This document shows positions 3,913-6,393 of a stretch of DNA of 64,000 nucleotides, piece after piece. The notes beneath the pieces were generated by a model. That model ran no database searches, had not been told where the DNA came from, and saw only the letters and a list, made by a program, of their open reading frames with translations. This stretch comes from Nitrosopumilus adriaticus (GTDB lineage: Archaea > Thermoproteota > Nitrososphaeria > Nitrososphaerales > Nitrosopumilaceae), in assembly GCF_000956175.1 (NCBI RefSeq), contig NZ_CP011070.1, positions 1,544,147 through 1,608,146 on the forward strand. Direction: 5' to 3'. Each line of letters opens with the position of its first letter. Positions within the stretch are counted from its first letter, which is position 1. Position numbers and translations under genes: made by a program.

Positions 3913-4093
3913 ACAATAAATGAAAATTATATCCAAAATAAGAGCTTTGAAAATAGGAATTCTGGCTAAAATAGGCATAAAATTTTAGAATTTAAGATAA
4001 TGTTTCTCAAACAAAATTGGAGAGATAATAGATATTCATTGTAAATGTTCTAAATTCTAATTTTAACCAATTAGTCGATCTAGAATCTTTTTT

Positions 4094-4114
4094 GTTTGTT
4101 TTAAAATAACAAAC
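4094..4114. promoter_or_regulatory. Perfect inverted repeat enclosing a TATA box
   Basis: GTTTGTT and AACAAAC arms (7 bp each) flank TTAAAAT at 4101-4107, which sits 28-34 bp before the ATG at 4135, the usual archaeal TATA distance for a leaderless mRNA. A dimeric repressor bound here would cover the promoter. No regulator can be named. Confidence 0.5.
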
Positions 4115-4134
4115 ACGATGCTAAGTATTAATTT

Positions 4135-5607
4135 ATGAATCTAACAGTAATGAGAACATTAAGAACTCAATTATCCGTATTAACAGTTATTCTTTTTACA
4201 TTAGGATTTGCCCCATATCTTACATCTGATGCTTTTGCAGCATCTGGAATTTCATCTGCAATAGCAGACGATCCAAATGATGCAGATGCAGTATATTCTG
4301 TTGACGATACCATAGTCATCACATTTCCAGCTCAAGTAAATAGCACATTTGCATCAGGAACAATGACTAATGCAGAATTCCGTGCAAACTTTACAGTAGC
4401 TAATTCAGATATAGATACTGCTGATACTATCAGTGGTATTTGGAATGCAGGGGCTACTGCATTAACATTAACAATTGATACAATTGCAGGTTCTACTCCT
4501 CCAGTGATAAATACTGACACAGTACTTTATGATCCAACTGCAGGAAATATTCACTATCAAGGAAATGGAACTGAATTTACAAACACAGCAGTTACTCTAA
4601 CAGGTGACTTTGGTTTGTTTGTTTCAGTTTCTGCAAGTAATGGAAGTGGATGTAGCGGGGATTGTGAAGAGCCAACACTGGGTGTAGATAGTAAGGGTAA
4701 GAGATTAGTTGATAACGGATTTACATACAATGGAAAATCAATTGATGTTGAGAGATACTTTACACCATATCCTCTTGTAACAGTAACCACAGGAGAGAAA
4801 AACATTGCAGAATTCAAAATTTATGATAACTTGGGTCCGGACAACATCTCTCACTTTGAGTTAGCATTTGGTCTGGCAAAAGGAGAAATTATGAGTAACA
4901 GCAAGGCAGTAATTAATTGGGACAAGTCATTTGATGGTGTAGCAACACTTTCAGTTGATGATCCTGAACATGTCTTAGGGGACATCGAAGTCTCAACTTC
5001 TGAAGGTAATTGCTCTGAGGAATCAGCACAGCAATGCCTACTAGTCAAAGTAATTCACACATTTAGAGCACCACTTGATTTCAACATACTTGGAACAAAT
5101 GTTTGGGATACAGAGCGTAATGCTTGGCAAAACTATTACAATCACGGAATTGAAGTTGTAGGACCATCAATGAATCCTGCAAAAGAATATGATGGAATCA
5201 ACAATGGTCAGATTTACCACTTGACTGAAACTGGCAGGACCACAGCAGTTGATGAATTTGGAAATTCATGGTCTCTAGTAATTGACCAATGGACTATGGA
5301 TTATATTCCAAACAAAAAGATAGTGGATGAAATTGCAATGAGCGGTATTGCAAGAGAGCATGCTTACTTTAACATGTACAAATATGGGCAATATCTATTG
5401 GCAGAAAATGAACTAAACCAGATTTGTCCTGGATGTCTTGATGGATCGTATGAGGAAATTGACAATATTTTCTCTTATGACTTTAAGGAAAGAATCAGCA
5501 AACTTGACAAACCAGAAGTAAAACAAAAGATGCTATTAGGATCTGAGAGAGCACAAAAAACTATGGATTACATACTTGATCCAATTTTACATCTAAAGAA
5601 TCAATGA
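4135..5607 (+). CDS. Secreted protein of unknown function with C-terminal CxxC module
   Basis: 490 aa. The N-terminus is a signal peptide (basic MRTLRTQ, hydrophobic core, Ala-x-Ala near residue 36); translation could also begin at the Met 5 codons in. The mature part is Ser/Thr/Asn/Asp-rich and probably beta-structured, with a further Cys pair near GSGCSGDCEEP. Residues about 409-452 (H-x2-F-x2-Y-x2-GQ-x-L, C-x2-C-x-D-x-S, EID-x-IF-x-YDF) closely match the C-terminus of the convergent gene at 5601-6248. I do not recognise the family. Export and an extracellular or envelope location are inferred from the signal peptide. Confidence 0.85.
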   Translation: MNLTVMRTLRTQLSVLTVILFTLGFAPYLTSDAFAASGISSAIADDPNDADAVYSVDDTIVITFPAQVNSTFASGTMTNAEFRANFTVANSDIDTADTISGIWNAGATALTLTIDTIAGSTPPVINTDTVLYDPTAGNIHYQGNGTEFTNTAVTLTGDFGLFVSVSASNGSGCSGDCEEPTLGVDSKGKRLVDNGFTYNGKSIDVERYFTPYPLVTVTTGEKNIAEFKIYDNLGPDNISHFELAFGLAKGEIMSNSKAVINWDKSFDGVATLSVDDPEHVLGDIEVSTSEGNCSEESAQQCLLVKVIHTFRAPLDFNILGTNVWDTERNAWQNYYNHGIEVVGPSMNPAKEYDGINNGQIYHLTETGRTTAVDEFGNSWSLVIDQWTMDYIPNKKIVDEIAMSGIAREHAYFNMYKYGQYLLAENELNQICPGCLDGSYEEIDNIFSYDFKERISKLDKPEVKQKMLLGSERAQKTMDYILDPILHLKNQ

Positions 5608-6248
5608 TTGCTTTTTATTTTGAATAGGGACTCAAAAAGATTTTTTGTTCTAAGAGATTCTGAATCTAAGTTTTGTTGATATTCATTGTTAACTCGCTTG
5701 TTATATTCAGGAAAATCATATTGGAAAATATCATCTATTTCTTTAAAAGATTCATCAAAGCATTTCAAACAGTTTTGTTTTAGCAAATATTGAGCAACTA
5801 GCTGTTGTCCTTGAACATAAATTGGAAAGAAACTGTGCTGCCTATCAATACCATGCATTGGAATTTTGTTTGATTCAATTTTCATTAATACAGGAACTAT
5901 TTTGTATCCATAGTACCCTTCATCCAGATTCATATCCAGATAAGAAAATATTTTTGGATTTGTAATTTCTGCAACTTTATGATAGTCTGAATTTAAATCT
6001 TTTCTCAGTATTTCAAATCCAGTTATTTTTTTGTCTTTTGAAATAGTTGGTTTTTCCCATTCGAGTTTCAGTGAGTCTTTTGAGAAAGTAGTGATTGTAA
6101 CTGGGACAGATGCATCAATTTCTGAATCAAGAATTCCAACCAGATATTCTGATTTCCAGGATAGTGATTCTTCAGCAAAAGAACTTTCTATAGATCCAAG
6201 TAATATTATAGCAGTGATAATGCTAATTCCTAGTAATTCACATCTCAT
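5601..6248 (-). CDS. Secreted fibronectin-III-like protein with shared C-terminal CxxC module
   Basis: 215 aa. A signal peptide (residues 1-25, ending SFA-EES) is followed by a fibronectin type III-like domain at about 45-135 (LKLEWEKP, ITGFEILRK, YGYKIVPV), a fold used in extracellular protein contacts. The end, from His138 through Cys160-x2-Cys163 to the YDF near 177, repeats the module of the secreted protein on the other strand. Their stop codons overlap by 7 bp. The function is unknown; partners or a common ligand are inferred only from the shared module and proximity. Confidence 0.8.
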   Translation of the reverse strand: MRCELLGISIITAIILLGSIESSFAEESLSWKSEYLVGILDSEIDASVPVTITTFSKDSLKLEWEKPTISKDKKITGFEILRKDLNSDYHKVAEITNPKIFSYLDMNLDEGYYGYKIVPVLMKIESNKIPMHGIDRQHSFFPIYVQGQQLVAQYLLKQNCLKCFDESFKEIDDIFQYDFPEYNKRVNNEYQQNLDSESLRTKNLFESLFKIKSNH

Positions 6249-6393
6249 TTTGAGTCTAGATTTGAAATGAAATATGAGGGATTAAAGACAGAGGAATATT
6301 TTGAAGATAGTGAGTTCCTTTTTGGAAATAGTTTACGTAAAATTCCTAAGAGTTTGGCAAACGGCTTTATCCTAGTCTTAAGATATTTCCACC

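Follow-up and report, generated by a model that had tools for sequence, protein, structure and literature searches.

Ammonia-oxidising archaea are among the most abundant marine microbes, and their cell surface is poorly understood beyond the S-layer. The PEFG-CTERM/archaeosortase signals of these organisms are short tails made up of a motif, a transmembrane helix and a basic end. In dockerin-cohesin and coiled-coil pairing tails, small modules common to secreted partners unite catalytic or binding domains, and in the Rad50 zinc hook, whose members all possess CXXC, a CPxC motif sits between coiled-coil helices. Ig-like and fibronectin III domains are found in archaeal surface proteins.

Within a 64,000-nucleotide stretch of the Nitrosopumilus adriaticus chromosome (the window), two convergent genes encode the exported proteins P0001 (490 aa) and P0002 (215 aa), which resemble each of these systems in part. 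Like the PEFG-CTERM signals, the C-terminal module that they share closes exported proteins whose N-terminal domains vary, but it is ~85 aa long and lacks a transmembrane helix, and neither protein has an NCBIfam match above the model cut-off. Like the dockerin-cohesin and coiled-coil tails it would be a small module common to secreted partners, but no sequence relation to these tails was found and binding by the module is here a proposal. The module recalls the Rad50 zinc hook in that a CPxC turn links its two predicted amphipathic helices, and it would join chains if metal-bound; this is a resemblance only, with no sequence match, and the module differs from the hook in being extracytoplasmic, in its short helices and in the absence of the Cys pair from half of its members. 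The core of P0001 is modelled as an Ig-like beta sandwich and P0002 contains a fibronectin-III-like stretch, but the signature of the P0001 core is distinct and includes a conserved Cys pair, Pfam has no model for it, and the fibronectin III match of P0002 falls below threshold.

We find that the module is a real, unnamed and lineage-restricted C-terminal tail that usually ends a larger Ig-like region. Tentatively, and with a little less than an even chance of being right, we read it as a helical-hairpin docking module, with P0001 and P0002 as surface partner proteins from a two-gene cassette; docking, the identity of the partners and the surface location of both proteins are what we infer. 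The analysis defines two unnamed domains, the Ig-like core and the helical tail, on many exported proteins of ammonia-oxidising archaea, and it offers a concrete hypothesis on which secreted proteins cooperate, together with a chromosomal site at which such genes vary between species.

Extent and predicted fold of the module

The host of P0001 and P0002 is a member of the Nitrosopumilaceae with a genome of 1.80 Mb in a single contig. As noted in the preliminary description, the two reading frames overlap by 7 bp at their ends (Table 1) and both products have signal peptides, seen here as a hydrophobic N-terminal signal segment in each; beyond this segment, a hydropathy scan found no transmembrane-like stretch in either protein. 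Their N-terminal parts differ, as had also been stated. Residues 50-97 of P0002 match the fn3 model (PF00041) with 17.5 bits and an E of 0.0048, below the 25-bit Pfam gathering cut-off, and the AF2 model of P0002, itself of low confidence, gave no significant fold match.

Table 1. Features of the convergent gene pair and its site (positions in the window)
Feature	Position	Strand	Description or basis
Two-gene insert, ~2.36 kb	3964..6319	.	Three relatives lack it and have the flanking genes side by side; breakpoints approximate, flank alignments overlap by ~17 bp
P0001	4135..5607	+	Exported; signal peptide, variable N-terminal beta-rich domain, Ig-like core, C-terminal module
Ig-like core of P0001 (residues ~178-390)	4666..5304	+	Unnamed family domain, signature PTLGVD...FTPYPL...W..DY
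C-terminal module of P0001 (residues 398-490)	5326..5604	+	BLASTP, profile searches, module alignment
Predicted module helix 1 of P0001 (residues 412-430; conserved F412, A423, L427)	5368..5424	+	AF2, conservation
CPGC of P0001 (residues 431-434), at the turn	5425..5436	+	Cys pair all-or-none in 71 modules
Predicted module helix 2 of P0001 (residues 460-489; hydrophobic stripe 462/466/473/477/480)	5512..5601	+	AF2, conservation
P0002	5601..6248	-	Exported; signal peptide, fibronectin-III-like domain, C-terminal module
C-terminal module of P0002 (residues 127-215; predicted helices 141-159, 188-214)	5604..5870	-	BLASTP, AF2
CLKC of P0002 (residues 160-163), at the module turn	5760..5771	-	Cys positions
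Fibronectin-III-like region of P0002 (residues ~50-123)	5880..6101	-	fn3 PF00041 match, residues 50-97

In a BLASTP alignment of residues 398-452 of P0001 with residues 127-181 of P0002, 27 of 55 positions are identical and 38 positive (E 1e-15), and the local score of 142 is far above the scores of 2000 shuffles (mean 34.8, SD 5.3, maximum 62). The C-terminal module first noticed in both proteins is thus borne out. Its alignment stands as described, but its length had been drawn too short: the module reaches the C-terminus of each protein (~398-490 and ~127-215), takes in a second conserved amphipathic helix, as predicted, that had not been listed and has a full length of ~85-90 residues.

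AF2 models the module as a helix-turn-helix in both proteins, in models of moderate quality (mean pLDDT of 66.8 and 57.3) in which parts of the module lie near or below 60. In the module alignment, R407, F412, A423 and A473 are near-invariant (97%, 96%, 97% and 94%, respectively), and positions 427, 462, 466 and 477 are 91-99% hydrophobic. Hydrophobic residues, including the conserved A423, L427, A473 and L477, recur at three- or four-residue spacing and form one stripe per helix. The predicted fold of the module is a helical hairpin with the Cys pair at its turn, and the conserved hydrophobic stripes of such a hairpin would make a plausible docking surface.

Distribution of the module and of the Ig-like core

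A wider profile search located the module in 46 of 250 Nitrosopumilaceae genomes. When 398 genomes of the phylum were sampled with the module profile, 16 matched, all from one family, and no member was found among them outside Nitrosopumilaceae. The module has no family in Pfam or NCBIfam and no PDB sequence match above chance, in keeping with its first description as unrecognised. It is neither confined to P0001 and P0002 nor part of a known larger domain, and the view that otherwise different exported proteins share it holds well beyond this pair.

The collected loci contain 75 distinct module ORFs. The Ig-like core is also present in 60 of these ORFs, and the 15 coreless ones comprise nine that encode small exported proteins, which fall into three kinds, and six short ORFs, five of which are cut by the end of the stretch. 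In the 60 ORFs the module closes a larger C-terminal region with an Ig-like core, and the notion of a free-standing tag is therefore apt only for small partner proteins such as P0002.

Residues 211-390 of P0001, within the core, are modelled by AF2 as all-beta with a mean pLDDT mostly of 76-95. The nearest solved single-domain overlaps found by Foldseek are Ig V domains and nanobodies, with a target TM of ~0.6 at an E of only ~1e-3 and a query TM below 0.2, and sequence searches of Pfam, NCBIfam and the PDB with the core returned nothing above chance. P0001 homologues are found in 89 of 200 genomes of the family, and some core-bearing proteins have other C-terminal ends in place of the module. 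Three ORFs (L051 1-1728, L060 1-1869 and L145 1326-2663) present the core and module behind very different N-terminal regions, subtilase-like in L051 and composed of YCF48-like repeats in L060 and L145 (domain names assigned by eye only), as if core and module were a reusable C-terminal unit.

The position of the core directly upstream of the module in these 60 ORFs, and the invariably C-terminal placement of the module, are what would be expected of a structural cap or spacer for the Ig-like core, one that acts within its own chain, has no partner and was acquired by P0002 through gene fusion. We consider this explanation unlikely, given that three unrelated kinds of exported protein carry the module without the core and keep its conserved residues, and that a low-confidence linker (residues 392-404, pLDDT <50) stands between core and module in the P0001 model.

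Gene pairing and the variable site

The site occupied by the two genes lies between an NnrE-like gene, named by sequence resemblance, and a gene for a conserved 202-aa protein; it is empty in G158, G080 and G571 and holds other genes in G181, G175 and G134. With its place empty or taken by other genes in these genomes, the pair resembles in its behaviour a cassette of two genes at a site of variable content.

The P0002 family (fibronectin-III-like region plus module) is rare: of 250 genomes, 6 carry it, with 7 full copies between them. The P0002-type gene is convergent with a gene for an Ig-like core plus module in the host genome (G000) and in G030 and G093, and tandem with one in G039, and the two copies of G076 lie ~4.4 kb from such a gene. 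The two genes stand at facing contig ends in G129 and are putatively adjacent across the contig break. The assembly of that genome breaks inside both modules (contigs C6 and C48; L125 and L126), where breaks would be expected if two convergent genes had similar 3' ends. When the flanks of the P0002 loci were compared all against all, they had only the gene pair in common, plus one response-regulator-like match. Four genus groups retain P0002 with its conserved residues and partner gene while its surroundings have changed. An Ig-like plus module gene also stands beside the genes for two more small exported proteins that have the module and N-termini of unrelated sequence, one of 222 aa in convergent orientation (G130, C72) and one of 256 aa in tandem (G129, C12).

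The repeated joining of this tail to unrelated exported proteins beside module genes, and the linkage of the pair through relocation, argue for a partner relation. In the docking reading that we prefer, the module, confined as far as seen to Nitrosopumilaceae, is the tail of a large family of secreted Ig-like surface proteins, and it has also become attached, minus the core, to small exported proteins whose genes neighbour one of that family. The modules of P0001 and P0002 would pack their helices together, or both would bind a common receptor at the surface, and the fibronectin-III-like and Ig-like domains would thereby be united there; the CPxC turn, where present, would either form a disulfide that fixes the hairpin or bind metal. 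Neighbourhood evidence alone cannot tell whether the two proteins would dock on each other or both on a third one. Also against this reading are the moderate quality of the AF2 models, the presence of P0002 in only six genomes, the unmatched Cys states of the partners in G039 and the fact that small neighbours with a module are missing for most module proteins. A bolder form of the same idea, possible but on the whole unlikely, is that the module encodes pairing: through this helical tail, specific to the lineage, small exported proteins would be recruited to, or swapped among, Ig-like surface proteins, unrelated N-terminal domains having acquired it at least three times beside such genes, with pairs moving together between chromosomal sites.

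The shared tails might also be by-products of local partial duplication of surface genes, with no partner function. The neighbouring tails at G129 C12, identical at 131 of 173 positions, are by their sequences a recent duplication, and the presence of different genes at the P0001/P0002 site in other species would also suit this explanation. However, in the module tree the P0002 modules lie on one side of a branch, apart from the modules of their neighbours, in 89% of bootstrap trees, although the alignment has few columns, many forks are weak and support for the P0002 clade is itself weak (55/95). The fit of the P0002 modules to a single origin, and the fact that they do not cluster with their neighbours' modules, argue against recent copying; with the retention of P0002 and its partner gene in four genus groups despite changed surroundings, they make mere duplication improbable. 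Gene conversion between adjacent modules likewise found no support, as the P0002 modules group with each other and not with their neighbours.

The cysteine pair and the metzincin-like neighbours

Among 71 aligned modules both Cys residues are present in 35, neither in 36 and a single one in none. The pair is therefore optional and all-or-none and does not define the module, which had first been described as a short Cys-pair module. All-or-none occurrence fits a disulfide or a joint metal site. Mature P0002 has no Cys except C160 and C163, and the Cys states of the partners agree in 5 of 6 genomes (four of these related; G039 is the exception). These features, and the placement of the pair at the turn between two helices, would suit a CPxC turn that is itself the functional point, either an intermolecular zinc site of the zinc-hook type or a redox or metal centre joining two modules. 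We hold little expectation of this, since half of the modules have neither Cys, often with a shortened turn, which excludes a general role, a simple local disulfide explains the all-or-none pattern equally well and a Pfam search gave no zinc-hook family match. The Cys-based metal or cofactor tag of the preliminary description consequently fails as a general role and is possible for half of the modules only.

The sorting or anchoring tag also put forward there, which would be read by a dedicated and perhaps cleaving enzyme in the manner of PEFG-CTERM or the type IX secretion C-terminal domain, is consistent with the placement of the module at the C-terminus of exported proteins that differ in their N-terminal domains and with the gene for a secreted metzincin-like protein that lies directly downstream at some loci. 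One such locus is a paralogue cluster in the host genome at ~815,200-823,000 (G000:C1, ~818 kb; L129 2205-10036), outside the surroundings of P0001 and P0002. It comprises two class III cyclase-like genes, one of them divergent and the other a PF00211 cyclase, together with genes for the paralogue, which is exported and of the Ig-like plus module type, and for two proteins with metzincin-like motifs, one large and exported (HEIGHNLGLDH) and one small (HEFIHKIGLRH). At least four further genomes have the cluster (G076, L077, L078 and L080), and partial versions exist elsewhere; the papers searched include none on a Nitrosopumilus cyclase-metalloprotease system.

Such a tag is nonetheless improbable for a module of this length with two predicted helices and no transmembrane segment: within the final 100 residues, no 19-residue stretch has a hydropathy above 0.29 in P0001 or 0.48 in P0002, and neither protein has an NCBIfam match above the model cut-off. 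No processing gene is shared among the compared flanks of P0001/P0002-type loci, and the metzincin-like neighbour occurs only at cyclase-type loci, where 5 of 10 metzincin-family neighbours have HExxHxxGxxH (of the remaining five, one is cut by a contig end). No module-like tail was found on these neighbours. A general processing protease for the module was rejected, the HExxHxxGxxH pattern having 7 sites in the host genome, two of them beside the paralogue, and none in window ORFs of at least 100 aa. A viral origin was also discarded, as searches with the core-plus-module alignment and tblastn confirmed no relative in IMG/VR contigs.

Two metzincin-family proteins (L077 4684-6903 and L081 3386-5800) have an LPEFSTFS end followed by a hydrophobic stretch and basic residues, which is PEFG-CTERM-like and unlike the module proteins. 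At L020 1408-2712 and L081 1-1305, the ending of the Ig-like plus module ORF resembles the C-terminus of the adjacent cyclase, a similarity that suggests a past deletion fusion.
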